From an uncultured Cytophagales bacterium (lineage in GTDB: Bacteria; Bacteroidota; Bacteroidia; Cytophagales; Thermoflexibacteraceae): a DNA stretch of 64,000 nucleotides. Below the pieces are notes generated by a model, which was not told the origin of the DNA, searched no databases, and saw only the letters and a program-made list of their open reading frames with translations. Location: positions 62,001 to 126,000 of the forward strand of contig CALHUI010000003.1 of the NCBI GenBank assembly GCA_938039675.1, read 5' to 3'. A program made the position numbers and the translations under genes. Below, one piece after another: positions 1,554 through 57,800 of the stretch. How positions within the stretch are numbered: position 1 is the stretch's first letter; each line of letters starts with the position of its first letter.

Positions 1554-1610
1554 TGCGCATGGGTTTGCTGTTGCCTTGAAATGGTTGTTATGGTTACTCG
1601 GCTTATTCAT

Positions 1611-1639
1611 ACCTGACAGGTTTTTAAAACCTGTCAGGT
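1611..1639. repeat. perfect 29-nt palindrome
   Basis: The arms ACCTGACAGGTTTT and AAAACCTGTCAGGT flank a single central T (1625) and form a perfect 14-bp inverted repeat. It lies 34 nt past the stop of the BtuB-like gene and just before the upstream ATG of the CWC/DUF5522 gene. No T-run follows on either strand apart from the arms, so it may be a mobile palindromic element or an mRNA-stability hairpin rather than a classic terminator. A partial echo (GTTGTCAGGTTT) follows at about 1646-1657. Confidence 0.85.
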
Positions 1640-1673
1640 ATGAAGGTTGTCAGGTTTAGAGTGCTTAACTACA

Positions 1674-3587: not shown

Positions 3588-3704
3588 CGCATTCAGGTTT
3601 GAATTTTTAACAATTCAACCCAAAGCCATACAGCAAAAAACAAACGACCTTGCGGAAATTTTCCGAAGTATCCTTAGCCTTTCACCCGAAAGCCTTGAAT
3701 TTGT

Positions 3705-3893
3705 GATGGGGGCAGGTCTCCTGGCTTGCTCACTGCTAATCGCCTTCCCAAAACTCGTAGGTTTCAGTGGCATGAGGGTTGATTAGCAGCTGATAAATGA
3801 GCTTACAGTTGCGGGGACAGCTCCGGTCTTACACCGGATTCCCTTTTAAGCCGTGCAACAGCCTATATTGCACAGCACCCTAACATCGGTGCA
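3705..3893 (-). promoter_or_regulatory. cobalamin riboswitch
   Basis: Read on the minus strand, the element contains the conserved cobalamin aptamer blocks in order. They are GGGAATCCGGTG (3832-3843), CCCGCAACTG (near 3806-3815), GCCACTGAAAC (3761-3771) and the B12 box AGCCAGGAGACC (3715-3726). These match the standard cobalamin riboswitch family. It sits in the leader of the BtuB-like receptor and should repress that gene when adenosyl- or another cobalamin is abundant. The mechanism (terminator or ribosome-site occlusion) is not obvious from the 118-nt spacer to the start codon. Confidence 0.96.
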
Positions 3894-3920
3894 AATGTAG
3901 TAAAATTTGCAGAACAACAA
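3892..3920 (-). promoter_or_regulatory. Bacteroidota-type promoter for the riboswitch-btuB transcript
   Basis: On the minus strand a TTGTTG block (3915-3920) is separated by 18 nt from TACATTTG (3892-3899), close to the Bacteroidota consensus TTG-N19-TAnnTTTG. The -7 box touches the first bases of the aptamer, so transcription should start within the first helix region of the riboswitch. Confidence 0.7.
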
Positions 3921-10084: not shown

Positions 10085-10777
10085 ATGGCTTTTATTCTGA
10101 TTGTTGAAGACGACGAGCGTGTATCGGAACTGCTGCGGCGCGGGCTGGCAGAAAACGGCTTCATTGCCGATGCAGCCTACGACGGGCTGACGGGCAAAAA
10201 ATTAGCTCTGCAAAACCCCTACGATTTGGTCATTACTGATGTGGCGTTGCCCAAAATGGACGGTCTGGAACTTTGCAAGGCGCTGCGCCAAAGTAAACCC
10301 AACCTGCCGATTATCATGCTCACCGCACTGGGTACTACCGACGACAAGGTGGAAGGATTTGATGCCGGCGCAGATGATTATTTAGTCAAACCTTTTGAAA
10401 TGCGCGAACTGCTGGCGCGCATCCGTGTCCTGCTCAAACGGGCACAAACAGCAGTTATGCCACAAGGCGATATGCTGCAATATGCAGACCTGAAACTCAA
10501 CCTCAACACCAAAACCGCCGAGCGCAACGGCATTGCCATCAACCTAACCCCCAAAGAGTTCAAACTGCTGTCCTACATGCTGCAACATGCCGGGCGGGTG
10601 CTCTCCCGCATCGAAATTGCCGAAAAAGTATGGGACACGCACTTTGACACGGGAACAAATTTTATTGACGTGTACATCAACTACCTGCGAAAAAAAGTGG
10701 ACAAAGACTTTGAGCCCAAACTCATCCATACCCGCCCGGGCATGGGCTTTGTGCTGATGAAACCCGATAACGCATGA
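10085..10777 (+). CDS. OmpR-family response regulator
   Basis: This 230-residue regulator has an N-terminal receiver domain with the acidic pocket (Glu8, Asp9, Asp10), phospho-acceptor Asp52 in VITDVALPKMDG, Thr80 and Lys102 in YLVKPFE. A C-terminal winged-helix DNA-binding domain (about 130-226, NLTPKEFKLLSYMLQHAGRV) follows. Its stop overlaps the start of the sensor kinase in an ATGA junction. The two genes precede mgtC-mgtE and a CzcABC/CusABC-type exporter, so control of metal homeostasis (CusR/CzcR-like) is inferred. No operator could be identified. Confidence 0.94.
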   Translation: MAFILIVEDDERVSELLRRGLAENGFIADAAYDGLTGKKLALQNPYDLVITDVALPKMDGLELCKALRQSKPNLPIIMLTALGTTDDKVEGFDAGADDYLVKPFEMRELLARIRVLLKRAQTAVMPQGDMLQYADLKLNLNTKTAERNGIAINLTPKEFKLLSYMLQHAGRVLSRIEIAEKVWDTHFDTGTNFIDVYINYLRKKVDKDFEPKLIHTRPGMGFVLMKPDNA

Positions 10778-12132
10778 AAATCCGCTTGCGCCTTGCCCTG
10801 CTCTTTACTGCGCTTGCCGCCGCCATTCTACTGGCTTTTGCGGCGGTGATTTACTGGTCGGCACGTAGCAATCGCGAAAACGAATTTTACGCACTGCTGC
10901 AAAAGGAAGCACTCACCAAAGCCAATTTAGTATTGGATGCCAAAGTGGACACAGCTACCTTGCAGCGTATCTATCGCAATAACAGGCAGATTATCAACGA
11001 AGTGGAAGTAGCCGTGTACGATAGCAATTTCCACCTGCTGTATCACGATGCGGTGGATATTGACTTTGTAAAAGAGCATCCCCGAATGCTATCGCAAATT
11101 CGCAATGAAGGCAAGGTGCAATTTTATCAGGACGGCTGGCAGGTCATCGGGTTGCGGCATGAGTTTGAAGGGCGGAAATACCTGCTCACCGCCGCTGCTT
11201 ACGACCAGTACGGCTACAACAAGTTGGAAAGTCTGCTGCAAAACATGATGGCAGTTTTTGCCGCAGCAATGGCACTCATTTTCGGGGCAGGGCTGTATTT
11301 TGCCCGCCGCGCGCTGCAACCTGTTGCTGCTATGACTGAACAAGCGCGGCACATTTCGGCTACCAATTTACACTTGTGTTTGCCCGTCGGGCGAAATGCC
11401 GATGAACTTGCCGAACTTGCTGCCACATTCAACAACATGTTGGCGCAATTGGAAAACTCATTTGAGGCGCAAAAAAACTTTGTTTCCAACATTTCCCACG
11501 AATTGCGCACCCCGTTGGCAGCCATGATTGCCGAATTGGAACTTGCTCAAAGCCGCGAACGCAGCACCGAAGAATACCGCAGCGTTATTGCGCGCACGTT
11601 GGGCGATGCGCAGAAAATGGCACGACTTACAGGCAGCCTCTTAGACCTTGCCCGCGCCGAGTACGACCCCGCACAAATCACTTTTCGTCCTCTGCGCATA
11701 GATGAACTGCTTTTTGATGCCCGCCAACAGGTGTTGCAAGCACACCCCGATTATCGGATAGACATCGGCTTTGCCAACGAACCCGAAACCGAAGCGCAAA
11801 TCATGCTCAACGGTAACGAATACCTGCTCAAAGTTGCCTTGATAAACTTGCTGGAAAACGGCTGCAAATTTTCCGACAATCACCATTGCACAGCCACGCT
11901 GTATTTCACCACCACGGGCATGGAAATCAGTGTGGAAGACAAAGGCATCGGCATTGCCCCCGATGATTTGCCGCATATTTTTGAGCCGTTCTATCGCGGT
12001 GCAAACAGCCGCTTTGCCGAAGGCAACGGCATCGGGCTTTCGCTGACCCAAAAAATAGTCCGCCTGCACAAAGGCACAATTGAGGTCTATTCCCGCCCCT
12101 ATCAAGGCACGCGCTTTCTAATAATTTTCTAA
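10774..12132 (+). CDS. sensor histidine kinase with HAMP domain
   Basis: This 452-residue membrane kinase is the partner of the preceding regulator, and their genes overlap by 4 nt. Transmembrane segment 1 spans about residues 7-29, a periplasmic sensor of roughly 125 residues follows, and TM2 is at about 157-177. A HAMP linker (178-232), a DHp domain with phospho-His242 in SNISHELRTPLAAM, and a C-terminal ATPase domain (N-box LINLLENGCKF, G-boxes DKGIGIAPDDL and GNGIGLSLTQKI) complete it. The architecture and short periplasmic domain resemble CusS/CzcS metal sensors. The ligand is inferred only from the neighbouring transporters. Confidence 0.94.
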   Translation: MKIRLRLALLFTALAAAILLAFAAVIYWSARSNRENEFYALLQKEALTKANLVLDAKVDTATLQRIYRNNRQIINEVEVAVYDSNFHLLYHDAVDIDFVKEHPRMLSQIRNEGKVQFYQDGWQVIGLRHEFEGRKYLLTAAAYDQYGYNKLESLLQNMMAVFAAAMALIFGAGLYFARRALQPVAAMTEQARHISATNLHLCLPVGRNADELAELAATFNNMLAQLENSFEAQKNFVSNISHELRTPLAAMIAELELAQSRERSTEEYRSVIARTLGDAQKMARLTGSLLDLARAEYDPAQITFRPLRIDELLFDARQQVLQAHPDYRIDIGFANEPETEAQIMLNGNEYLLKVALINLLENGCKFSDNHHCTATLYFTTTGMEISVEDKGIGIAPDDLPHIFEPFYRGANSRFAEGNGIGLSLTQKIVRLHKGTIEVYSRPYQGTRFLIIF

Positions 12133-12229
12133 TAATTTTCTAAAACTTCTCTAATGGCTGCCCTGCAACAAGGCGGGTAATTTTGCGATACAATCATCGA
12201 GCAATTAAGTAGTTGAGCAGTTTCAATCG

Positions 12230-12306
12230 AAAAAATTTGCTGACAGGGCATTGAGCCGTTGTCAGGGATTTGTAAAGCCTGTTAGCCGTCGCAGACGCTA
12301 ACAGCG
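12230..12306 (+). repeat. dispersed leader repeat, copy 1 (upstream of mgtC)
   Basis: The 245-nt gap before mgtC contains a two-part element. A 42-nt block (12230-12271) matches 14462-14503 at 35 of 42 positions. A hairpin CCTGTTAGC...GCTAACAG (12278-12304) follows. Bases 12282-12306 are also repeated, inverted, at 20271-20295. It ends 71 nt before the mgtC start. Confidence 0.75.
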
Positions 12307-12377
12307 CTTTCTACCAAAACAACCTTTTAAATTAATTACCGATTTCCCACCAAAAATCCTAAAACCCGCAAAAGGCC

Positions 12378-13091
12378 ATGACAACATTGGATTTCATCTT
12401 GCGGCTGATGCTTGCTTTCGGGCTGGGCGCAATGATTGGCATTGAGCGGCAGTGGCGGCAAAAAAGTGCCGGGTTGCGCACCAACACTCTGGTTTCCGTC
12501 GGTTCGGCAGCTTTTATTCTGCTGTCGGTGCTGCTCACAGGAGATGCCGGTGACCCAAGCCGTGTAGCCGGACAGATTGTTACGGGCATAGGCTTTTTGG
12601 GTGCTGGCGTAATTATGAAAGACGGCATGAGCGTTCAAGGATTGAACACTGCTGCTACTATTTGGTGTTCGGCAGCGGTCGGGGCGCTGGCAGGCGTAGG
12701 TTTAGTTACTGAATCGCTCATTACTGCTTTTACCGTAGTGAGCGTGCATCTCATCTTGCGTCCGTTGGGCAATCGGCTGAATCGCATTCCTGTGCAAAAC
12801 GCTGCCGACGAAGGCGCTTATACCTATGCGCTGAAACTGCGCTGCAAAGAACAAGTAGAAAATCACTTGCGGGTATTACTGATTAACTACTTGAAAAATG
12901 ATGAACACCTACAACTGCGGGCACTGAAAAGCAGCGACAACGGCAGCCCTGCCCATACCTACGTCGAAGCCGAAATTCAGGCAATCGGCAGGCACGATAA
13001 CTTCATTGAACAACTTGCAGGAAAATTTACGCTGGAATACGGCGTAACCGAAGTGCGCTGGGAAATTATTGGACAACAAAACGACTATTGA
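12378..13091 (+). CDS. mgtC: MgtC/SapB family membrane protein
   Basis: This 237-residue protein has four to five predicted membrane helices in the first 135 residues with the MgtC/SapB signature. Key stretches are FGLGAMIGIERQWRQK, AGLRTNTLVSVGSA, and GIGFLGAGVIMKDG followed by GLNTAATIWCSAAVG. A soluble C-terminal domain of about 90 residues follows, as in long MgtC proteins. MgtC proteins are tied to growth in low magnesium and to modulation of the F-type ATP synthase; they are not transporters themselves. The stop is 1 nt from the mgtE ATG, so the pair is one transcription unit. Confidence 0.9.
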   Translation: MTTLDFILRLMLAFGLGAMIGIERQWRQKSAGLRTNTLVSVGSAAFILLSVLLTGDAGDPSRVAGQIVTGIGFLGAGVIMKDGMSVQGLNTAATIWCSAAVGALAGVGLVTESLITAFTVVSVHLILRPLGNRLNRIPVQNAADEGAYTYALKLRCKEQVENHLRVLLINYLKNDEHLQLRALKSSDNGSPAHTYVEAEIQAIGRHDNFIEQLAGKFTLEYGVTEVRWEIIGQQNDY

Positions 13092-13092
13092 T

Positions 13093-14439
13093 ATGAACAC
13101 AGCAGCAAATAAAACAATATTGCCCACAGAGCAACTCAAAAAAATGCCTGTTGTGGAAGTTGCCGAATTGCTGGCAGGCATAGAAGCCCCCGAACTACTG
13201 CCGCAGTTAGACAACTTCACCGCTGCGCAGCAAGGGCTAATTGTTGCTGAATTTGCCATGACCAAACAGTTAGAACTTTTCCAATCGGTCAGCCGCAAGC
13301 GATTTGCCCTCATTTTTGAGCAAATGCCCTCCGACAATCGCGCCGACTTGTTTCAGCACCTTACCCAACAGGAACAAGCCGAACTGCTGCCTTTTCTTTC
13401 CAAAAAGGTGCGCGAAGACGTTATTCAACTTAGCAACTATCCGCCCGAAACAGCAGGCGGCATTATGAGTACGGACTTTGCCACCGTGCAGGAAACCATG
13501 ACTTGCGCCGAAGCCATTGCCAAAATACGCTTGGATGCGCCTTCCAAACGCACCATTTATTACGTGTATGTAGTAAACGACAATCAGGAAATGCAGGGCT
13601 TTATCACCCTGAAAGACCTGATTATGAATGAACCCGAAACCTTAGTCAGTTGTGCCATGCACCACAAGTTTGCCTTTGCCTACGTAGACGAAGACCGCGA
13701 AGAGGTAGCCAAAAAAATAGAACGCTACGACTTGGTGGCGCTGCCCGTGCTGAACAGGCAGAACCAATTGGTCGGCATTGTTACACACGACGAAGCGTTA
13801 GACATCATCCGCGCCGAACACACCGAAGACATGGAACGATTCATGGGCATCATCCAAACCAACGAAGAGTTTGACTACCTCAAAACGGGCACGTGGGAAC
13901 ACTTCCGCAAGCGGGTAGTTTGGATTGTTTCGCTGGCTGCTGTCGGTATTATTTCGGGTATGATTATCCACAACTACGAAAATGCACTGGAAAAACTGCT
14001 CATCCTTGCCCTCTACATGCCCATGGTTGCCGATACGGGCGGCAATGCGGGCAGTCAGGCGGCAACAGTGGTAGTGCGCGCACTGGCACTGGGGCAAGTA
14101 ACAGTGAAAGATTGGCTGAAAATTCTGTGGAAAGAAGCCAAAGTATCTGTTTTGCTGTCGGTTTGTTTGGGGGCGCTGGCATTTGCCAAAGTTCTGTTTT
14201 TGAGTTGGGAAACCGAAATTCCCGCTGCCTATCGGTTGAGTGAAATTGCTTTTGCTATTTCGCTGGCGCTTTCCTTGCAGGTTATCACGGCAACCATCAT
14301 CGGGGCGGGTTTGCCTATTTTGGTGAAGCGATTTGGCGGCGACCCCGCAGTGGCTGCAAGTCCTGCCATCACTACCGTAGTGGATATTACCGGTCTGCTA
14401 ATTTATTTCGGCACGGCTTCGCTGTTTTTTGCACTGTAA
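13093..14439 (+). CDS. mgtE: magnesium transporter MgtE
   Basis: This 448-residue Mg2+ channel/transporter contains, in order, an MgtE N-domain (helical repeats, about 20-125), a CBS-domain pair (about 130-250, ETAGGIMSTDFATV and YDLVALPVLNRQNQLVGIVT), and a five-helix membrane domain (about 280-448, with PMVADTGGNAGSQAATVVVRAL and GGDPAVAASPAITTVVD). The CBS domains normally close the channel at high cytoplasmic Mg2+. A longer frame begins at a TTG (13069) inside mgtC; the ATG at 13093, 1 nt after the mgtC stop, is the better start. Confidence 0.95.
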   Translation: MNTAANKTILPTEQLKKMPVVEVAELLAGIEAPELLPQLDNFTAAQQGLIVAEFAMTKQLELFQSVSRKRFALIFEQMPSDNRADLFQHLTQQEQAELLPFLSKKVREDVIQLSNYPPETAGGIMSTDFATVQETMTCAEAIAKIRLDAPSKRTIYYVYVVNDNQEMQGFITLKDLIMNEPETLVSCAMHHKFAFAYVDEDREEVAKKIERYDLVALPVLNRQNQLVGIVTHDEALDIIRAEHTEDMERFMGIIQTNEEFDYLKTGTWEHFRKRVVWIVSLAAVGIISGMIIHNYENALEKLLILALYMPMVADTGGNAGSQAATVVVRALALGQVTVKDWLKILWKEAKVSVLLSVCLGALAFAKVLFLSWETEIPAAYRLSEIAFAISLALSLQVITATIIGAGLPILVKRFGGDPAVAASPAITTVVDITGLLIYFGTASLFFAL

Positions 14440-14461
14440 ATGAACAATTTAAGATGAATTT

Positions 14462-14538
14462 AAAAAAATTGCTTACAGGGCATTCAGCTGTCGGCAGGGA
14501 TTGTTTCCCACCCTGTTAGCGAGCGAACTCCCTAACAG
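14462..14538 (+). repeat. dispersed leader repeat, copy 2 (upstream of the exporter adaptor gene)
   Basis: This copy has the same two-part layout as 12230-12306: a 42-nt block (14462-14503) followed by an inverted repeat CTGTTAG...CTAACAG (14513-14519 / 14532-14538). It ends 47 nt before the adaptor ATG. The loop between the arms differs from copy 1. Confidence 0.75.
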
Positions 14539-14585
14539 TAGTTAAAAAAACACAAGTAAAAACCTGAAAACTAACCCTAAAACCT

Positions 14586-15701
14586 ATGAAATACCTCTTG
14601 CAGCCGACCTTAGGGCTGTTACTGTGCTGTCTGTTGGTAGCCTGCCGCAAAGAAGAACCGACAGAGGCAGAAGCCCCCTACACTGTATCGGGTGATACTG
14701 TTACCATTCGGGAAGGCAATGTGTTGCTCTCTAAGCTCAAAATCATTACGGCAACCGCCGAGAACTACCGCCCCGAACTGATAACCGCCGGAACAGTACG
14801 AGCAATTCCTAACTTATACGCTGAAATTGCACCGCCTTTTGCCGGTAGAGTGAGCAAAGTGCATTTGCGATTGGGTATGAAAACCCAAGCAGGCACGCCG
14901 TTGTTTGAAATCGTTTCGCCTGCGTTCATAGATGCACAGAAAGCATTTTTTCAGGCAAAATCCGAATTTGAAGTGGCACAACTTGCCCTCAAACGGCAAA
15001 AAGACCTGAAAGCCAACGGCGTAGGTGCACAGCGCGATTTGGAAGAAGCTGAAGCTAACTATCAGGTGCAGGAAAAGGAATATCAAAATGCAGTTGCCAA
15101 CCTAAAAGTGTTCGGCGTGGATGTAGACAAACTCTCTCTGGGGCAACCGCTGGTTGTTACCTCACCTATTGCAGGTGAAGTGGTTGAAAATGAAGTAGTT
15201 ATGGGACATTATATGCGCGAAGATGACCCACCGCATGCCAAAGTGATAGACCTTAGCAAAGTATGGGTAGTAGGCATGGTTAAAGAAAAAGACCTTCGCT
15301 TTATCCGACAGTTAGACAGTGCCGAAGTGCGCGTTGCTGCCTATCCAGACCGCCTTTTCAAAGGCAAAGTTTATCACATCAACGAACTGATAGACGAAGA
15401 AACCCGCAGCGTGCAGGTATTGATAGAATGCGAAAACCTGAACCACGAACTCAAACCGGGTATGTACGTAACCACCCGTTTTCTGGACATTCCCGAACAG
15501 GTAACGATTGTTCCGGCAAAAGCCGTGTTGCAAATGAACGATACGCAGTTTGTGTTTGTCCAAGTCGGCGAACGTAGCTACCAACGCCGCAAAGTTACGA
15601 CCGAAGGCACACCCGACGGGCGCATCGTTATTCGCAGCGGCGTGCAGGCAGGCGAAAAGGTGGTCAGTGAAGGCGGCATTTATTTGTTGGAAGCAAAATG
15701 A
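14586..15701 (+). CDS. RND efflux periplasmic adaptor (CusB/CzcB-like lipoprotein)
   Basis: This 371-residue membrane-fusion protein has a lipoprotein signal with lipobox LVAC (Cys20). It contains a biotinyl-lipoyl-like half (YAEIAPPFAGRVSKVHLRLG), a coiled-coil hairpin (about 115-180, AQKAFFQAKSEFEVAQLALK and a KDLKANGVGAQRDLEEAE segment), the returning half-motif SPIAGEVVENEVVMG, and beta-barrel and membrane-proximal domains. It links the inner-membrane pump to the outer-membrane channel. Its stop overlaps an ATG of the next frame in ATGA, but the true pump start is probably 54 nt further on. It is the first gene of a three-gene exporter set. Confidence 0.92.
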   Translation: MKYLLQPTLGLLLCCLLVACRKEEPTEAEAPYTVSGDTVTIREGNVLLSKLKIITATAENYRPELITAGTVRAIPNLYAEIAPPFAGRVSKVHLRLGMKTQAGTPLFEIVSPAFIDAQKAFFQAKSEFEVAQLALKRQKDLKANGVGAQRDLEEAEANYQVQEKEYQNAVANLKVFGVDVDKLSLGQPLVVTSPIAGEVVENEVVMGHYMREDDPPHAKVIDLSKVWVVGMVKEKDLRFIRQLDSAEVRVAAYPDRLFKGKVYHINELIDEETRSVQVLIECENLNHELKPGMYVTTRFLDIPEQVTIVPAKAVLQMNDTQFVFVQVGERSYQRRKVTTEGTPDGRIVIRSGVQAGEKVVSEGGIYLLEAK

Positions 15702-15708
15702 AAAAGAT

Positions 15709-15736
15709 TTCGGATTTCCGAACTCCCAAATCCGAA
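15709..15736 (+). repeat. intercistronic hairpin between adaptor and pump genes
   Basis: TTCGGATTT (15709-15717) and AAATCCGAA (15728-15736) form a 9-bp stem with a 10-nt loop. The sequence is of the same GGATTTCGGA/TCCGAA type seen in other gaps of this cluster. This is why the 19 residues that an ATG at 15698 would add are judged to be translated spacer rather than true protein. Confidence 0.7.
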
Positions 15737-15754
15737 CTCTCAAATCCCAATTCT

Positions 15755-18700
15755 ATGTGGTTTCTTATCAATATTGCTATTTTGAAACGCTGGCTGATGA
15801 TGGCGCTGTTTATTTTGCTGGGCTTTTTCGGCTACTATTCGTGGAAACAGCTCTCTGTTGAAGCCTATCCCGATATTGCCGACGTTACCTCACAGGTAGT
15901 AACCCAAGTGCCCGGGCTGGCAGCCGAAGAAGTCGAACAACAAATCACTATTCCCATTGAGCGGGCGCTCAACGGGATGCCCGGACTGCATGTGATGCGT
16001 AGCAAAAGCACTTTTGGGCTGTCTATGATAACGCTGGTTTTCAAAGACGGCGTAGATGACTACTGGGCGCGAATGCGCGTGCAGGAACGGCTCAACGAAG
16101 TAGAACTGCCCTATGGTGCTCTGCCGGGATTAGACCCGCTCACTTCGCCCATTGGCGAAATTTACCGCTACATCATAGAAAGCAACAACCACGACCTGCG
16201 AGAACTGACTGATTTGCAACTGTTTACTATCATTCCGCGCATGAAACAAGTGCCGGGCGTGGCAGATGTTACCAACTTCGGCGGTATTACCACTCAGTTT
16301 CAGGTAGAGTTAGACCCGCGCAAGTTGGAACAATACAACCTTTCGCTGAGCGAAGTGATTGAAAAAATTGAGAAAAATAATGCCAATGCGGGTGGCAGTG
16401 TGCTGCCTCGTGGCGATTTGGGTTATGTTATTCGCGGCATCGGGTTGATTAAAAATTTAGAAGATTTGGGTAAAATTGTCGTTAAAACCGACAAGGGTGT
16501 GCCAATTTTTCTCAACGATATTGGCAAACTGCGCTATGGGAACATTGAGCGAAAGGGCATTCTTGGGTATAGCGACCGCTCCCGCGAATACACCGAAAGC
16601 ATAGAAGGCATTGTGCTGCTCTTGCGCCACGAAAACCCGTCCGTAGTGTTGGAAGGTATTCACGAAGCCGTCCGCGATTTGAACGAAAACATTTTGCCCG
16701 AAGGCGTGCGCATCCATGCTTTTTTAGACCGTACCGACCTGGTCAATACCACCCTTTCTACGGTTTCGCATACGCTCACCGAAGGCATTGCATTGGTGGT
16801 GATTGTGCTGATTGTGTTTCTGGGCAGTTGGCGCGGTGCTTTGCTGGTTGCCCTTACCATTCCGTTGGCGCTGCTCATCGCTTTCATCCTCATGCACCTG
16901 ACCGATATTCCTGCAAACCTGCTTTCGCTGGGCGCAATTGACTTTGGAATCATTGTGGACGGTGCAATTGTGATGACGGAAAGCATCCTGAAACGCCGCG
17001 AAGAACATCCTGACGAAGAATTGCAGGAAAAAACCATTGCACAGCTTGCCTACGACGTGGCGCGCCCCGTGTTTTTTGCAACCGTTATCATCATCACCGC
17101 CTATTTGCCGCTCTTTGCCTTTGAGCGGGTCGAGAAGAAACTCTTTACCCCGATGGCCTTCACGGTGGGTTACGCCTTGTTGGGGGCATTGATGGTGGCG
17201 CTGTTGCTCATTCCGGGCATGGCTTATGCTGTCTATCGTCGTCCGCAAAAGCTCTACCATAATCGTTGGCTGGAAAAGCTGACTGCCCTCTACTACAGCC
17301 GCATACAGAAAATCATGCGCCGCCCGCAACAGGTTTTTGTGCCTTTGCTGCTCACACTTGCAGGTGCAGTCGGGCTGACCGTTTGGGTGGGTAAAGATTT
17401 TTTGCCGCCCTTAGACGAAGGCTCTATCTGGTTGCAGGTGCAACTGCCCCCGGGCATTTCGCTGGCAAAATCGCGTGAATTGAGCGATACGCTGCGCACA
17501 CGCACCATGAAATATGAAGAAGTTACCTACATTATGGTGCAGGCCGGGCGCAACGACGATGGCACAGACCCTTGGACACCTTCGCACTTTGAGGTTTCTA
17601 TCGGATTAAAACCTTACAAAGAGTGGAAACGCGGCAAAACCAAAGCCGATTTGATTGAGAAACTGGCAGCCGAATATGCCACGCTGCCCGGCTATACTGT
17701 CGGATTTTCCCAACCAATGATTGACGGGGTAATGGACAAAATATCGGGTGCACACAGCGAATTGGTCGTAAAAATTTATGGCGATGATTTTGCCGAAACG
17801 CGCCGCATTGCCGAAGAAGTGCTGCGCGTGCTCCGTACCGTCCCCGGTGCGGTGGACTTGGCAATTGACCAAGAGCCGCCGTTGCCTCAACTGCAAATCC
17901 ACACCGACCGCGACAAAGTGGCACAATACGGCTTGAACGTTTCCGACGTAGCCGAACTCATAGAAGTAGCCATCGGCGGAAAGGCGATTTCTCAACTGTT
18001 CATCGGAAACAAAGTGTATGATATTATTTGCCGATATAGTGAAGAAAGTCGCAATTCGTCCGAAAAAATCGCCAACCTGATGCTTACATCGGGAATGGGA
18101 GCAAAAATTCCGCTGTCGCAAGTGGCAGATGTGCGCCTCAGCACAGGCGAAAGCACCATCACCCGCGAAATGAACAAACGCCACCTGACCGTTAAGCTCA
18201 ACGTCCGCAACCGCGATTTGGCCTCGCTGCTCAAAGAAGCGCAAGATAAGATTGAAAAACAGGTGCAATACGACCGCGAAAAGTTTCAAATCAGATGGGG
18301 CGGACAGTTTGAAAACCAAAACCGCGCCTATGCAAGGCTGGCGGTAATAGTACCGCTGGCGCTGGCGATTATGTTTGTGCTGCTCTACGGGGCTTTCGGG
18401 CGATTTCGTCAGGCGGGTTTGCTCATGGGCATTGTGCCGCTGGCGCTCTTTGGGGGCATGTTGGCACTAAATGTTCGCGGCATGACGCTTAACGTATCGT
18501 CTGCCGTCGGGTTTATTGCCCTTTTCGGCGTAGCTATTCAAAACGGCGTGATTATGATTTCGCACATCAACGACTTGCGCCGTCGCGGACACGACCTGCT
18601 TAACGCTGTGCTGGAAGGTGCGGAAGACCGTTTCCGCCCCGTGCTGATGACTGCCACTGTGGCAGTGTTGGGCTTGCTGCCTGCTTCGCTATCAACGGGC

Positions 18701-18853
18701 ATCGGCAGCGACGTGCAGCGACCGCTGGCAACCGTTATCGTGTACGGGCTAATGTTTTCTACCGCGCTGACGCTCTACGCTTTGCCCGCCCTGTACTACC
18801 TGACTGAAAAACGCTGGGGCGCGGACGATTTCCAAAACAACAGCGAAGAATGA
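15755..18853 (+). CDS. CzcA/CusA-type heavy-metal RND efflux pump
   Basis: This 1,032-residue inner-membrane proton antiporter exports divalent or monovalent heavy metals. It shows the duplicated RND layout: TM1 at about 10-30, a large periplasmic loop, TM2-6 at about 330-540, TM7, a second loop, and TM8-12. The heavy-metal signature DFGIIVDGAIVMTE is at about residues 396-409. That Asp-containing form is typical of Zn/Co/Cd-type pumps. I start at MWFLINIAILKRW (ATG 15755) because this matches family N-termini, and the upstream ATG (15698) only adds residues encoded by an intergenic hairpin. It works with the flanking adaptor and channel genes. Confidence 0.94.
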   Translation: MWFLINIAILKRWLMMALFILLGFFGYYSWKQLSVEAYPDIADVTSQVVTQVPGLAAEEVEQQITIPIERALNGMPGLHVMRSKSTFGLSMITLVFKDGVDDYWARMRVQERLNEVELPYGALPGLDPLTSPIGEIYRYIIESNNHDLRELTDLQLFTIIPRMKQVPGVADVTNFGGITTQFQVELDPRKLEQYNLSLSEVIEKIEKNNANAGGSVLPRGDLGYVIRGIGLIKNLEDLGKIVVKTDKGVPIFLNDIGKLRYGNIERKGILGYSDRSREYTESIEGIVLLLRHENPSVVLEGIHEAVRDLNENILPEGVRIHAFLDRTDLVNTTLSTVSHTLTEGIALVVIVLIVFLGSWRGALLVALTIPLALLIAFILMHLTDIPANLLSLGAIDFGIIVDGAIVMTESILKRREEHPDEELQEKTIAQLAYDVARPVFFATVIIITAYLPLFAFERVEKKLFTPMAFTVGYALLGALMVALLLIPGMAYAVYRRPQKLYHNRWLEKLTALYYSRIQKIMRRPQQVFVPLLLTLAGAVGLTVWVGKDFLPPLDEGSIWLQVQLPPGISLAKSRELSDTLRTRTMKYEEVTYIMVQAGRNDDGTDPWTPSHFEVSIGLKPYKEWKRGKTKADLIEKLAAEYATLPGYTVGFSQPMIDGVMDKISGAHSELVVKIYGDDFAETRRIAEEVLRVLRTVPGAVDLAIDQEPPLPQLQIHTDRDKVAQYGLNVSDVAELIEVAIGGKAISQLFIGNKVYDIICRYSEESRNSSEKIANLMLTSGMGAKIPLSQVADVRLSTGESTITREMNKRHLTVKLNVRNRDLASLLKEAQDKIEKQVQYDREKFQIRWGGQFENQNRAYARLAVIVPLALAIMFVLLYGAFGRFRQAGLLMGIVPLALFGGMLALNVRGMTLNVSSAVGFIALFGVAIQNGVIMISHINDLRRRGHDLLNAVLEGAEDRFRPVLMTATVAVLGLLPASLSTGIGSDVQRPLATVIVYGLMFSTALTLYALPALYYLTEKRWGADDFQNNSEE

Positions 18854-18921: not shown

Positions 18922-20211
18922 ATGCAATTGAAACGATTCTTACTTACCATTGCCTTGCTGACCGCATATGCGCAATTTTCGGCAGCCCAAACCGACACGG
19001 CTTTTGTGCGTGTGCCGTTGCGCTATACCGATTTTCTGGCACAAGTCGGACAACAAAACCTACTATTTGCCGCCGAAAAATTCAACATCAGCATTGCCGA
19101 AGCAGGCATAGAAAGCGCCAAAATTTTCCCCGACCCCGAATTGACCTTCGGATGGTTTGACAACGGACAACGACGGATGCAAATGGGCTTCGGCTTTGAA
19201 ACGGCACTGGGCTGGACGCTGGAATTGGGGGGCAAACGAAAAGCCCGCATCGCACTGGTACAAAGCGAAAGCGAACTTGTGCGCTACATGGTGCAAGATT
19301 TCTACCGACACCTGCGTGCCGATGCTACGCTTAGCTTTCTCTCTGCCATTCACAACCGCTTTCAATACAGGGTTCGGCTGGCTTCCTACCAAAGTATGCG
19401 GCAAATTGCCTTTTCGGACAGCATCCGCTATCGGCTGGGGGCAATTACCGAAATGGACGCGCGTCAAAGCCAATTAGAAGCTGGCATCATGCTCAACGAT
19501 GTTTTTCAGACCCAAGCCGATTGGAAAAGCAGTCTTGCCGCCCTGCACTTGCTCATTGCCAAGCCCGTATCCGCCGATACGCTGCTTTTGCCCGAAGGCG
19601 ATTTCAGCCGCTTTGAGCGCAATTTCAACCTCAACGAACTGATTATCACGGCGCAAAACAACCGCGCCGACCTAATGGCTGCCTTGCAACAAAAAGACGT
19701 GGGTGAAAAAATGCTACGCCTTGCCAAAGCCAACCGCATAATTGACCTTGGGCTGGCAGCGGGTATCAACCACACGTCGTACGTTACCAATGTGATTGCG
19801 CCTACGCCATCTTTTACGGTAGTTAGCGGCGGTATCTCCGTTCCATTGCGCTTTTCCAACAAATTTGCGGGCGAACTGAAAGCCGCCAAAGCCGCACAAG
19901 CGCAGGCAGATTTGCTCTACGAACAAGCCGAATTGCAAATTGCCAATGAGGTTACGCAGGCATATTTCCGATATGAGGCTGTCAAAAAACAGGTGCGACA
20001 GTTCAACACGGGGTTGTTAGCCGAAGCACAAGCAGTTTTGAATGGCAAAATATACAGCTACCAACGCGGCGAAACCAACTTGTTGGAAGTGTTGAATGCC
20101 CAACGAACCTACAACGAAGTGCAACAGAACTATTACAACACCTTGTTCCAATTAGCCGCTACGCTGGTAGAGTTGGAACGCGCCGCTGCCATCTGGGACA
20201 TTGACCTGTGA
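18922..20211 (+). CDS. TolC-family outer-membrane efflux protein (CzcC/CusC-like)
   Basis: This 429-residue protein has a Sec signal peptide (about 1-22, ending SAAQ) and two OEP repeats rich in long helices, with the characteristic later segment RGETNLLEVLNAQRTYNEVQ. It forms the trimeric outer-membrane channel of the tripartite exporter encoded by the two preceding genes. Length and the absence of a lipobox fit the CzcC/TolC group. After it come a repeat and a hairpin (20271-20356), then an outer-membrane protein gene. Confidence 0.92.
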   Translation: MQLKRFLLTIALLTAYAQFSAAQTDTAFVRVPLRYTDFLAQVGQQNLLFAAEKFNISIAEAGIESAKIFPDPELTFGWFDNGQRRMQMGFGFETALGWTLELGGKRKARIALVQSESELVRYMVQDFYRHLRADATLSFLSAIHNRFQYRVRLASYQSMRQIAFSDSIRYRLGAITEMDARQSQLEAGIMLNDVFQTQADWKSSLAALHLLIAKPVSADTLLLPEGDFSRFERNFNLNELIITAQNNRADLMAALQQKDVGEKMLRLAKANRIIDLGLAAGINHTSYVTNVIAPTPSFTVVSGGISVPLRFSNKFAGELKAAKAAQAQADLLYEQAELQIANEVTQAYFRYEAVKKQVRQFNTGLLAEAQAVLNGKIYSYQRGETNLLEVLNAQRTYNEVQQNYYNTLFQLAATLVELERAAAIWDIDL

Positions 20212-20270
20212 TAAGATTTGGGATTTCAGAATTGGGAATACGGATTCGAGATTTAAGATTTTTCATAAAT

Positions 20271-20295
20271 CGCTGTTAGCGTCTGCGACGGCTAA
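20271..20295 (-). repeat. 25-nt dispersed repeat, inverted copy of part of the mgtC leader repeat
   Basis: This stretch is exactly the reverse complement of 12282-12306 (core GTTAGCGTCTGCGACGG). The element itself forms a short hairpin with GTTAGC and GCTAA arms. Confidence 0.8.
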
Positions 20296-20314
20296 ACGGG
20301 TGTTAAGCAATTTT

Positions 20315-20356
20315 GAATTTGAGATTTTGAATTTCGGAATTTGAAATCTCAAATTC
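20315..20356 (+). repeat. AT-rich hairpin before the outer-membrane protein gene
   Basis: GAATTTGAGATTT (20315-20327) and AAATCTCAAATTC (20344-20356) form a perfect 13-bp stem with a 16-nt loop, ending 20 nt before the ATG at 20377. It may act as an attenuator or mRNA-stability element, or be a repeat remnant. There is no clean T-run. Confidence 0.7.
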
Positions 20357-20376
20357 GTAATTAAATCCGCAATACG

Positions 20377-21087
20377 ATGAAAAAAATTTTCTTGTTGATT
20401 CAATCGCTGATTATCGGCGGCAACCTTTGGGCGCAAACCGTTGATTTCATGCCACCCGATACGCTGCAAGTGGAACGCAACGCACGTGTGCATATAGGCA
20501 TACAGGTAGGATGGGGGCAAAGCCGTTTCTACGGCAGCGATTTAGCAGAACTCTCTGCCGACGGACAAGTGGCATTTCTTGACGGGCTGACCATTAGTTT
20601 GCAAGCCGTAACGCAAGTCGGCAAACATTTCAGCCTGTTACACGAAGTCAATTGGCAGGCGGGCGGAAGTCGCATCCGTCGCGAAGACAATGGCGGTAAT
20701 CGCTACGATGCCCGCTTGCGCACAAGGGCACTCCAGATAGTCCCTGTTGCACCAACTTTCATGTGGCAGGGCATTTTTTTGTATGCTGCCCCCTACATGA
20801 GCGCCCTTGCAGGCGGATTTGTTACCGACAGCAGCGGCAAAAAAGACCGCAGCATCTTTGGCGACCCGCAAAACACCACCCAAACGGATAAATACTTGCA
20901 AAAATTTGACTTCGGCGCGCTGGCGGGCATCGGTTGGGCAAGCCCACATTGGCACATGAGCCTGCGGTATCAAATCGGTAGAAATCCGCTGTTAGACAAC
21001 GCCAACGTGTTCACCTTCGACCAAACCCAACCCGTCATTCGCATCTACAACACGGGCTTCTGCTTGCTGGCAGGCTACCGATTTTGA
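20377..21087 (+). CDS. small outer-membrane beta-barrel protein, function unknown
   Basis: This 236-residue protein has a signal peptide (about 1-20, ending LWAQ) and strand-rich alternating sequence throughout (HVGIQVGWG-like opening strands, LHEVNWQAGG, HMSLRYQIGRN). It ends in an aromatic residue (LLAGYRF), as outer-membrane barrels do. It looks like the outer-membrane beta-barrel/PorT-like group common in Bacteroidota, but no specific family is recognised. It is co-directional with the exporter genes, 165 nt downstream, so it may be co-regulated with them. A role in metal export is only a contextual guess. Confidence 0.75.
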   Translation: MKKIFLLIQSLIIGGNLWAQTVDFMPPDTLQVERNARVHIGIQVGWGQSRFYGSDLAELSADGQVAFLDGLTISLQAVTQVGKHFSLLHEVNWQAGGSRIRREDNGGNRYDARLRTRALQIVPVAPTFMWQGIFLYAAPYMSALAGGFVTDSSGKKDRSIFGDPQNTTQTDKYLQKFDFGALAGIGWASPHWHMSLRYQIGRNPLLDNANVFTFDQTQPVIRIYNTGFCLLAGYRF

Positions 21088-51800: not shown

Positions 51801-54800
51801 TGCATGGGATTTCGGCACGGCTTCGGCAAACTATACCGCCGATTTAAGCAACCCTGCTAACCCTGTAATTCGCTACAATAGTGCAGGTAGCTACACTATT
51901 ACACAAACCGTTACAGCAGGTAATACTTGTTCAGTAACATTCAGCCGAGTGATTAACGTGATAGCGCCTGAAGCTACTATTTCTGCACAAGCAACCACAG
52001 GCCCTCCGGTGTTTGCGCCTGCACAATTAGTGGTGAGTTGTCCGCCGGCAGCAGTGCGTTTCCGTGCCACGCCGTTCCCTGATGCGGACATTGAGGAATA
52101 CTTCTGGGAATTTGGCGACGGCAACCGCTCGTTTGACCAAAACCCTGAAAATACTTATGTCAATCCCGGCGTTTACACGGTTCGCTTGACTATGCGCAGC
52201 CGTGCAGGCTGTACGGTCGTTCGTGAAATGACCAACTTCATCTTTGTAGATGGTCCTTCGGGAGAGTTTATTTTTACCCCGACAGATGTTTGTGCAAACA
52301 ATGTTGTTACATTAACGGCTACTAATTTGCAAAACGTAGCCTTTTATCAGTGGGACTTTGGCGATGGTACACCTGCTACTGCTCCTGTTGCATTCAACGC
52401 GGCTGCTTATGCGGCAGCGGGTAATCAATTGCAGGTTACGCATGTATATTCACGCCCGGGTACTTTTCAGCCCGTTCTGATTTTACAGGATAACAATACT
52501 CCGGCTTGTCGGGTATTTATTCGTCCGAATGGAGGGTTACGTGTGCGGGTAAGCGGCAAACCTACGGCTGCTTTTAGCTGGCCTAACAATAGCGGCAATA
52601 TCTGCGAAAACAGCAGTTTTATTGTTACCGATGAAAGTACAACAGATATAGATACTCCACCGACGCTTTCTCCGCAGATTGTTCGCTGGCAATGGGAGGT
52701 ATTTGACACAGACCCTGTGAGCAATCCCTCGGCAATACCAATTCGCTCGCAGGTGATTACTTCGGCACCGGGTAATTATACTTTTGCCAATAATCTTCCA
52801 GCCGGAAACTATTGGATTCGCTTGCGCGTGCGCACTGCTTTTGGTTGTGAAGATGAAGAGGTTAAGACAATCCAATTAGTCGCACCGGTTATCTATGCCG
52901 ATTTTGAAAACGATGCTTATATATGCGTAGGCAGCCCTGCCAACTTTAATGCAGGCAGTTCTAATGACCCTGCTACACGCTGCTTCACACCCGGTGGAAC
53001 GCCTGCCGCACCGGGGCCGTGTAATGCACCTAATGTGTTGCGTCCGCCTTTCTCATGGAGTTTTAGCGGCGGAACACCTTTGCCTTTGCTCTACGAATGG
53101 GAGTTTTCCGTCGGGGCAACCGTTCTGGGAACGGCTACGGGGCAGCGTCCTACGTTTACTTTCCCTGTCAATGCATCCAATCCGAGCCAGCCGTATGACG
53201 TAACCGTTCGCTTAACGGTGCGCGATGTCTTGCTGTGTACTTCGGGTGTAATCAAAACGGCCATTATTACCGTAAACCCGCTGCCACGCGCAGCCTTGAA
53301 CCCTTCAGATATAACCATTTGCCACAACGGAGGTATAAACAGTGCTTCATTTACTGCACAAGCAGACCCCGCTATTCCGGGTACGGTGCAATACCGCTGG
53401 CAAGTGGATGCAGGTGCAGGTTTTGGCGACTTGACAGACGGAGGCGTGTATAGCGGTGCCGGAACGCCAACGCTGAACTTGACCAACGTTCCCGAGTTTA
53501 TGAACGGCTGGCGTTTCAGAGTGCGCATTCAGAACACGAACAACATTCAGTGCGAGGCCTTCAGCACCCCTGCCACTCTGACCGTGATTCCTACGCCGAC
53601 AACGGCAACGGTGGTTTCACCGATTGATGTTTGCGATGCCACTACTGTTACCCTGACGGGTAATGCACCCGCAGCAGGGCGCGGCACAGGGCGCTGGGTG
53701 CAGTTGAGCGGCCCTACAACCATCAACTTTGGGGCGCAAATCAGCAATCCGACAGCAATCATTCCCGTCAGCAACGGGGTTTATACGTTCCGTTGGGAAA
53801 TTACCACCACTGCCAACAGTGTAAATTGCGTATCGCAGTCGCCTGTGCTGACCGTAAACAGCGGACGCTCTGCCGATGCAGGCCCCGACCAAGTCGTTTG
53901 TGAATTCATCAGCGGCACTACTACCCGCGTAGAGGTAACGTTGGCGGGCAATGACCCTGCCTTAGGCGGCGGCGGAACAGGCACGTGGACGGTCATCAAT
54001 CGCCCTTCGGGTTCACCTGTGCCTACCTTCATACCTAATGCAAATGCGCATAATGCAGTCATTACCGACTTGCGCCCGGGTACTTATACCTTGCGTTGGA
54101 GCATTGCAGGCGCGCCGGGCTGCGGCAATACGCAAGATGACATGGTCATTACCGTACATCCGCTGCCCATTATGCCTACGCTGCAAGACCAAACCGCTTG
54201 CGCCAACAGCACTGTGAGCCTCTCGGGCGGCGGATTGGTAGGTTTGGATATTCAGTGGGAAATGGCACTGCCTTCTAACCCGACCAATTTTACCCCTTTG
54301 GCAGACGGCGCGGCTTTTGGTGCAACATTCAGCGGCTCAACTACTAACACGCTCACCATTGCCAATGTGCCCACAGGGTTGAATGAGGCACTGTTCCGTG
54401 TGCGCGGTACGAATCCTGCTACGGGCTGTTTCAACTATACCAACCCTATTACCCTGACCGTAGCCGATGAGCAAAACAACGAAGTTACCGATGCCAGCAT
54501 TTGCGCCAACGAAACTTCGGTGAATATCATTGTGCGTAATGCAAAAGCCAATCATACCTACCGCCTGTTCCGCGGCGGCACTACCTACGGTACGCAAACA
54601 CCTGCCGTAAACGGCGATATAACCTTTACGCTGTCGGGAGGCGATATGCCGACCTCAACCACTTCATACAGCGTGGAAGTAACCGCGCCCGTAACAGGGG
54701 CAGGCAGTTGCGTAGTTGTATTACCCGACCAAGCCGTTATCACCGTTACGCCTGTTAATCAGGCGGTTGCCGATGCAGATTTTGATGCCTGTGATGTTAC

Positions 54801-57800
54801 GACCGTTACCCTGACGGGTAATATCCCGATTATCACGGGTGCGGGCGCATGGTCGCAGGTGAGCGGGCCGCCCGTGCCACCTGCTAATCGCACCATTAGC
54901 GGTCCTGATAATAACATACTGACGCTGAGTAACTTACAGGCGGGGCGTTACACTTTCCGCTGGCGCATTACCAACAGCACCTGCCCTGATTCGGAAGACT
55001 TGGTAACTTTCACCATTACCAACTCTGCCAATGCGGGCGCAGACCAACAGTTCTGTTTGCCGACAACAAGTACAACCTTAGCGGGTAACTTGCCTTACAC
55101 AGGAACGGCGGTTTGGTCGTTCGTATCGGGTCCAAGCGGCGTTACGCCCGTGCTGACCCCCGTACCGCTAACCCCTGATGAAATTACGGCGGGCGTATCA
55201 AGTCCGTACAGCGCAACGGTTACGGGCATGACTGCGGCGGGTGTGTATCGCTTCCGCTATGCCATCAGCGGCGGGGCTTGTCCACCCAGTGAAGACTTTG
55301 TGGATGTGTTCATTGCTGCGCCTGCCAATATTATCACGGCTGATACAAGGCTTTGCAACGTGAACAGCTTTGTAATAACTGCCGAAGTACCCGTTGTAGG
55401 TGCGGGTAATTGGTCGCTGGTGTTCACCGATGGTCCCGTACCGACGCTGGCAACTTCGGGAACAGGCAGCACTACGCTTACCGCCAACGGCTTGGGCAGA
55501 GGTCGTTATGTTTTTCGCTGGACGGTAACAGGTTCGCCATGCGGCACGGGCGGCAATACCTTTGATGAAATTCAGATTTTCAACGATGCACCCGCCAATG
55601 CGGGCGCGGATATAGCCCTTTGCGGCACGGTGAACCCGACTTCGGTACAACTCAATGCCGTGCCTGCCGTGAGTGGCACAATCGGTACATGGACGCAAGT
55701 GGGCGGTCCTGCCTTGCCGGCGGGCAGCTTTGTCAATCCGAATGCGGCGAACACCTTTGTAAATAACCTCATCCCCGGCAATGTGTACGATTTCCGCTGG
55801 ACAATCAGCGGCGGCTCTGCCTGTCCGCAGACAGAAGACGATGTGCGCGTAACTGTTTCGCAACCGCCTTCGCCTGCCGTAGCAGGTACGAACAAGATAC
55901 TTTGCACTATCAATACCGCCGTAATGGATGCCACGCCGCCCGTGTTCGGCACGGGCTTGTGGACGCTGGTAAGCGCACCGGCAGGGGCTACGCCCGTAAT
56001 TGTGAATCCTTCTTCACCCACTACGGCAGTTAATAACCTGAACATCATTGGCACGTACACTTTCCGCTGGACGGTAAGCAATCCGGGTTGCCCCGATAAT
56101 ACTGCCGATGTAAATATTGTCGTCCAATTGCCTGTGGCTGCCAGTGCGGGTGCTGATGCCAATATATGTGCTGCTACTTATACTATGGCTGCTAATGCTG
56201 TTCCAGCAGGGGCTACGGGGCAATGGACATTTGTTTCCGGACCTGTTACGCCTAATATTACTACGCCAAGTTCACCAACTACAGGCATTACAGGCATCAA
56301 TGCACCGGGTGAATATGTGTTCCGATGGCGTTTGAGCAACGGCACTTGTATTTCTGAAAGCACCGTAACCCTTCGCCGCGCCATTGTGGATGCAGGACCC
56401 GACGTAAATATTTGCGGAACGGGGAACACCGTTACGCTGAACGCTCAACCCCCTGTGGTAGGAACGGGCAGATGGTCGTTCATTTCAGGCCCGAACACGG
56501 TTATATTCTCTGACGATTTAGACAGAAATGCCACTGTCAGCGGCTTGACGCAATCGGGCACTTATATCATCCGATGGAGGGTAACAGGCACCCCTTGCGG
56601 CACTGTGTTTGATGATTTGGTGATTCGTGTGGCAGCACCTGCCAATGCAGGGGCAGACATCAGCGTTTGCGGTACGACTAACCCCGTAACGCTGGGCGCA
56701 ACGCCTGTGGTAGATCTGGGTACGGGCACATGGACGGTTGTTTCAGGTCCGAATACACCAACTTTTTCAAGTGCTACGGCTGCCAATGCGCAATTCGGTA
56801 CGGGTGGTACTTTGCAGGTAGGCACATATGTGTTGCGCTGGAGCGTAACGGGTTCAGTCTGTCCGAATAGTGAAGATTTCGTAACCGTAACCGTTTCGCC
56901 TTCCACAATCTCGGCGGGGGCAAACCAAACGCTCTGTTTGGTTTCCGCAGGAAGTACAACTACTGCTAACCTGTCGGGTACTGCACCCGTAACGGGAACG
57001 GGCACATGGACGCAAGTGGGCGGTCCGACCTTGCCTGCGGGCAGCATTGCCAACCTGAACAATCCGAACACAAGCGTGAGCAATTTGGGTGCGGGCATTT
57101 ACGTATTTCAATGGGCAGTAACGGGCGCAACCTGCCCCGGCAGTGCGCCTATCGTAACTGTTACGGTAGCTGAACCGCCGAGCATCATTACGCCGCCTGT
57201 TTCGCCGATTTGTGCAACGGGAACAACTGCCACCGTAACCGTAAGCGGCAACGTGCCTGTAATAGGAACGGGTACATGGTCGCGGGTATCGGGCCCGGGG
57301 GCTGCACCGACCATTTCCGTTTCATCAAGCGGCGGGGTAAGTGCGGCAACATTCAGCGGCTTGGAAGTAGGTACGCACGTATTGCAATGGGCATTCAGCG
57401 GAACAGCACCTTGTTCCTTCACACCTGCACAAGTTACGGTTGTTGTACAGCCGCAACCGACGCTTGCAACTGTTTCGCCTGCTACGCAAAGCGTATGCGC
57501 CGACCCTGCATCGGGCTTTGGCAGCGCAACGCTGACGGGCAGTGTACCTGCGGCGGGCAATACGGGCGCATGGTCGCACAGCGGACCGGGCACACCGACG
57601 CTTTCGCCAAGCGGCACGGGCGGCAGCACGCTCAACGTGAGCAATCTTGCCGTCGGTACGCATACTTTCACATGGACTATCACCAACGGATGCGGCACTT
57701 CTGCGGCATCGGCAACCGTAACGGTCAATCCGACCAATGCGCCGGCATCCATCGCCGCGCCGCCTGCCACTACCGTTTGCGGCTCACCGACGGGCACGAT

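Follow-up and report, generated by a model that had tools for sequence, protein, structure and literature searches.

A dispersed two-hairpin intergenic repeat upstream of mgtC and a heavy-metal exporter adaptor gene in an uncultured Cytophagales bacterium

The metal-transport cluster and its paired element

The window is a 64,000-nt stretch of contig CALHUI010000003.1 from an uncultured Cytophagales bacterium. On its forward strand lie a histidine kinase gene (10774..12132; PF02518, PF00512, PF00672), an MgtC-family gene (12378..13091; PF02308, E 8e-38), a gene for an MgtE-type divalent cation transporter (13069..14439; PF01769, with TIGR00400 above cut-off), whose start codon is uncertain and could also be 13102, and the genes of an exporter: a CusB/CzcB-like RND efflux periplasmic adaptor (HlyD_D23; 14586..15701; PF16576, with TIGR01730 above cut-off), a CusA/CzcA-family heavy-metal RND permease (15698..18853; TIGR00914, 926.8 bits, above cut-off) and an outer-membrane efflux factor (18922..20211; PF02321). 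The Pfam and TIGR matches bear out the names mgtC and metal exporter adaptor, which the initial annotation had assigned to two of these genes.

Two copies of one element stand in this cluster, both in the sense direction. Copy 1 (12232..12311, + strand) is located between the histidine kinase gene and mgtC, 66 nt upstream of the latter, and copy 2 (14464..14545, + strand) is located between mgtE and the adaptor gene, 40 nt upstream of the latter. Counted from the end of the hairpin, the start codon of mgtC is 73 nt away and that of the adaptor gene 47 nt; the initial annotation had the second distance right and had put the first at 71 nt. It had also described an element of about 75 nt with one hairpin, and while both copies are there, the repeat unit is 80-82 nt long and has two hairpins. 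The similarity on which that description was built, a shared 42-nt block and a CTGTTAG/CTAACAG hairpin, is real. The best ungapped 42-nt match between the copies (starting at 12229 and 14461) has 35 identities, against a best of 26 and a mean of 21.9 among 298 random pairs of equally sized intervals from the window, and the pattern CTGTTAG-N-CTAACAG occurs in the window at 12279-12304 and 14513-14538 only, with a mean of 0.00 occurrences in 100 shuffles. A full-length alignment of the two copies has 57 identities among 80 aligned bases and a single 2-nt gap.

The minimum-free-energy fold of copy 1 (-34 kcal/mol, z -4.63) contains hairpin 1, CTGACAGGGC...GTTGTCAG, at 12237..12268 (+), and hairpin 2, AAAGCCTGTTAG...CTAACAGCGCTTT, which has one bulge and holds the CTGTTAG/CTAACAG pattern, at 12274..12310 (+). 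Copy 2 (-27.2 kcal/mol, z -3.32) folds as RNA into one long hairpin, with an overall shape unlike that of copy 1.

A covariance model, R1, was built from 12 copies of the element, copies 1 and 2 included. In the window it matches copy 1 with 89.3 bits (E 6e-20) and copy 2 with 67.5 bits (E 1.4e-14), and it also picks out a degenerate third copy that the initial annotation had overlooked (20266..20321, - strand; 34.9 bits, E 1.4e-6), which consists mainly of hairpin 2 and lies between the outer-membrane factor gene and an OMP gene. A 29-nt arm of this copy is 97% complementary to copy 1. It is embedded in a GGATTTGGGATTT-like low-complexity stretch (window 20211-20377) that is variable among congeners. 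A different palindrome, CTGACAGGTTTTTAAAACCTGTCAG, at window 1607-1640, gives a weak match to the model and may belong to a second repeat family.

Copies across the host genome

A BLAST search of the own genome with copy 1 gave 18 matches at E<=10; counting copy 1 itself, 14 reach E<=2e-4. The R1 search of the 3.28-Mb host genome found at least 31 distinct places at E<0.004, among them the 12 training copies and the degenerate third copy of the window, and at least 52 matches at E<=1; these counts are lower bounds because scoring covered 150 of the 1570 initial candidates. At 12 of the 31 places the model matches both strands. The exact double-hairpin pattern occurs at 8 places in the genome, and its reversed control at 0. 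Copies are somewhat clustered, with 6 adjacent pairs within 8 kb where 2.2 are expected (P 0.016), pairs outside the metal cluster included, and in one locus (L219) two copies stand side by side. Several copies have a CGTTGCACGTTGCA-type insert in their hairpin loops, and loop expansions are seen in L080, L090 and L094, as well as in L218:1499-1628, where they are made of GCTTGCAGCCGC-type tandem units.

The surroundings of each place were examined in 2.5 kb of sequence fetched per side, with flanking genes called as longest ORFs. The places lie in the gaps between flanking ORFs, and a few weak ones (E>0.05) overlap ORFs. The gaps that house the 32 places found at E<0.02 are tandem in 17 cases, divergent in 9 and convergent in 6; the 64 flanking gene sides comprise 35 5' sides and 29 3' sides. 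Relative to the gene on the 5' side the element is sense in 18 cases and antisense in 17 (binomial p 1.0). Thirty of the 35 5'-side genes were scanned against Pfam, five short or doubtful ones being left out. MgtC and the CusB/CzcB-like adaptor are the only metal-transport genes among them. The other 28 include genes for ApbE, SMC, Fe-ADH, isopropylmalate dehydrogenase, cytochrome c peroxidase, an aldo/keto reductase, histidine biosynthesis, an M16 peptidase, an acyl-CoA dehydrogenase, a TonB-dependent receptor, a helicase and a RibD-like protein, and two of the 30 have no Pfam family. Beyond the MgtC and adaptor genes, there is no metal theme among the neighbours.

The 3' sides among the flanks (29/64) and the strong hairpins would fit a family of bidirectional transcription terminators. 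This reading is nevertheless highly improbable: divergent gaps, which account for 9 of the 32 places, need no terminator, no T run follows the focal hairpins, and a terminator scan was negative within both focal elements.

Evidence on a shared RNA regulator

The initial annotation had offered two readings of the pair, a shared RNA regulator or a simple dispersed palindromic repeat. The first would be a cis-acting RNA, such as a riboswitch, an attenuator or a protein-binding leader, common to mgtC and the metal exporter. The placement of the focal copies in sense shortly before metal-transport genes agrees with it, as do folds that are more stable than those of shuffled sequences and a subtype of hairpin 1 that is private to the pair. 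Against it, the element recurs at about 30 other places on random strands and next to genes of no common theme, the two focal copies fold differently as RNA, and neither focal element contains a terminator-like site. Copies concentrated upstream of metal genes had been named as the sign of regulation, and 2 of the 30 scanned 5'-side genes are metal-transport genes; many copies between unrelated genes, especially after stop codons, had been named as the sign against it, and many copies do lie between unrelated genes, after stop codons too (29 of 64 flanking sides are 3' sides).

Rfam was consulted at two levels. At the gathering threshold, the scan of the window returned only a cobalamin riboswitch, away from the elements (window 3694-3897, - strand, 109.5 bits). 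A permissive scan of 12100-14650 returned two chance-level matches, both outside the elements, and no relevant match appeared even at E 5. A riboswitch or known metal leader was rejected on this basis, neither level having given a relevant match. A literature search combining mgtC, leader RNA, magnesium and Bacteroidetes found no paper.

Conservation of the stems was examined as well. Standard pairs make up 81.1% of stem positions against 78.4% after shuffling, and 1 of 500 shuffles did as well, while further pair types show no excess over shuffles (306/500). A structured RNA would show an excess of standard pairs too, and this covariation test cannot tell RNA hairpins from DNA ones.

The element in related genomes

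The cluster of kinase, mgtC, mgtE, adaptor, RND permease and outer-membrane factor genes is syntenic in three genomes of the same genus, G002, G003 and G001, whose MgtC proteins are respectively 95%, 91% and 84% identical to the one studied here (the G002 adaptor is 96% identical). It is also kept in G008, taken as Thermoflexibacter ruber (MgtC 70%), with no mgtE match in the stretch examined. The full element is absent from the mgtC and adaptor leaders of all three congeners. It is missing from the mgtC leader of G003 and G001, and likewise of G008, and from the adaptor leader of G002 and G001; the mgtC leader of G002 contains no more than a palindromic stub of 18 nt, GACAGGGCATGCCCTGTC, and the adaptor leader of G003 has a stub of about 33 nt that resembles the element's two ends fused. 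The third copy is missing at its orthologous site in G002 and G003, and G002 has a copy of its own elsewhere in the cluster, in the gap upstream of the outer-membrane factor gene. Judging from these sequences, the relatives may once have had a copy at the focal sites that was since lost or truncated. Whichever history holds, the element is not kept with the mgtC and adaptor genes in the congeners.

This absence also bears on the shared regulator, which we regard as having almost no chance of being right: the element's neighbours are unrelated, it stands in either orientation and at times in convergent gaps, and congeners do not keep it next to mgtC or the adaptor gene. A metal-sensing switch common to the focal pair, in particular, is very unlikely given some 30 copies dispersed among unrelated genes and the absence of the element from the same spots in close relatives.

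Genome-wide, G002 has at least 32 distinct places and at least 41 matches on both strands, G003 has at least 3 matches to the covariance model, and the whole G001 genome gave zero R1 matches among the candidates scored. For 8 of the 32 places in the host genome both flanks were found at a G002 copy, and for a ninth one flank and an alignable element were found. Sharing with G002 was not seen for the remaining 23, which may reflect gain, loss or decay below threshold. Across an order-wide sample of 98 genomes, own genome counted, at least 6 have a match at E<=1e-6; at most 47 candidates were scored per genome and the counts are lower bounds.

The same comparison revealed a stretch of about 600-750 nt between the adaptor and RND permease genes of G002 (L124:8073-8570) and G003 (L125) that is absent in the window. 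It carries, amid GGATTTCGGAA-type satellites, a small ORF (165 aa in G002) whose product we presume to be a four-helix-bundle protein from its appearance.

The two focal copies may have a special relation. They have in common the hairpin-1 signature ACAGGGCATTNAGC, which has no other mismatch-free occurrence in the genome, and of 11 copies aligned, the mgtC copy comes closest to the adaptor copy, at 0.72 where the runner-up has 0.62. The nearest aligned copy to the mgtC copy is another one. Such a relation may be one of local duplication, conversion or common function, of which the first two would account for the likeness. It could be imagined that the repeat was captured twice in the metal cluster, was converted to the private hairpin-1 subtype and is now a species-specific leader tying MgtC and magnesium transport to heavy-metal export, and we give this scenario very little credence. 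A related possibility is that a dispersed repeat arose independently and that, in this one species, its focal copies took on a later role as leader hairpins, acting on mRNA stability or by partial termination. The private subtype would fit, and PMC3733652 puts forward as a hypothesis that REP-type repeats influence termination and the stability of mRNA, but the focal copies are not conserved in congeners and we consider co-option improbable.

Nature and origin of the repeat

The second reading in the initial annotation, a simple dispersed palindromic repeat, is the one favoured by the dispersal, the random strand and the unrelated genes. In our assessment the element, about 80 nt long and built of two imperfect hairpins, is very probably a dispersed repeat of non-coding DNA between genes, specific to its lineage and comparable to a BIME/REPIN-like doublet or a very small MITE-like element, that spread non-autonomously, its place before mgtC and the adaptor gene being incidental. 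Most likely it is non-autonomous mobile DNA whose single-stranded hairpins would be recognised by an enzyme in trans. New copies would have landed in intergenic DNA regardless of gene or strand, and old ones would decay by internal deletion into single-hairpin stubs; any effect on mgtC or the adaptor gene would then be the generic one that any hairpin has when it lies in a UTR. Both the mobility through a trans-acting transposase and the lack of a regulatory role are what we infer from the pattern of copies.

The family can be called REP-like in that it is repetitive (31 places), extragenic (in the gaps between ORFs) and palindromic (with conserved stems). MITEs are short, non-coding and dispersed and have partly symmetric ends, and the element is like them in the first three respects. 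Its own ends are only weakly symmetric, with a mean score of -1.1 against -5.0 for shuffles. Inverted similarity between the halves reached p<=0.01 in 6 of 26 copies with a crude aligner, so the label of REP doublet expresses likeness only, as this test was mostly not significant. Neither GTAG nor CGTC is present at the hairpin ends, where the 12 aligned copies have feet that are ATCC/GGAT-like and AAAGC/GCTTT-like.

The published repeats that it resembles were compared on the available text of three papers. REPINs are defined as REP doublets in inverted arrangement, with singlets seen as the remains of decayed doublets (PMC3116915, in part). The element is like REP doublets, BIMEs and REPINs as described there in being made of short imperfect palindromes with two hairpins per unit, in lying between genes in either orientation, in apparently decaying from two-hairpin units to single hairpins, and in forming occasional clusters and tandem pairs, such as the one in L219. 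It differs from the REPINs of that text in having about 30 copies rather than hundreds, in the lack of a RAYT found in the genome, in its weak doublet symmetry and in having no GTAG foot. CGTC-tagged palindromic REPs, with no dedicated transposase according to the accessible portion of PMC3733652, occur in Bacteroidetes; the element shares with them a dimer-like palindromic build, the host phylum and the lack of a dedicated transposase, but its hairpin ends have no CGTC. As far as the text of PMC6006769 at hand goes, the Bacteroidetes TnpA_REP subclass 2.6 has atypical hairpins alongside and subclass 2.4 has double-foot REPs. The element is like these in phylum and in having non-canonical hairpins that recur at other sites of the genome, and the stub in the G003 adaptor leader resembles the central deletion of an inverted dimer treated in the same text; unlike in those systems, such a TnpA_REP gene was not found in the own genome.

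The Y1_Tnp family (PF01797) was searched for in the own genome and eight related ones. There were 0 matches in the own genome, with positive controls, and 0 in G001 and G003; one gene was found in G002 and several in other genera. Six Y1_Tnp loci were examined with R1 and none has a clear copy adjoining, the sole weak match (E 0.34) being in L248; the G002 locus has no element. The G002 protein ends in a Y-x3-Q-x2-HH motif, which in the part of PMC6006769 seen belongs to a subclass generally without terminal hairpins, and its placement in that subclass, made by eye, is suggested by this motif. A RAYT link was rejected, there being no Y1_Tnp in the own genome and no clear element at the six loci examined. 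The element is not filed as a REPIN because no cognate transposase was found, the tags differ and the doublet symmetry is weakly supported.

So far as the literature search shows, the repeat is new as a named family, and no paper on it was recognised by title or abstract start. The analysis stops a false regulatory lead and adds to the record a small family of palindromic repeats from a Thermoflexibacter-related lineage of Bacteroidota. The family turns over between species whose DNA is about 92% identical, and no transposase is visible for it, which makes it a starting point for the question of how orphan REP-like elements are mobilised. Further along the window, positions 52000-62500 hold a long array of coding repeats of about 280 nt with 60-80% identity, encoding a giant repetitive protein.
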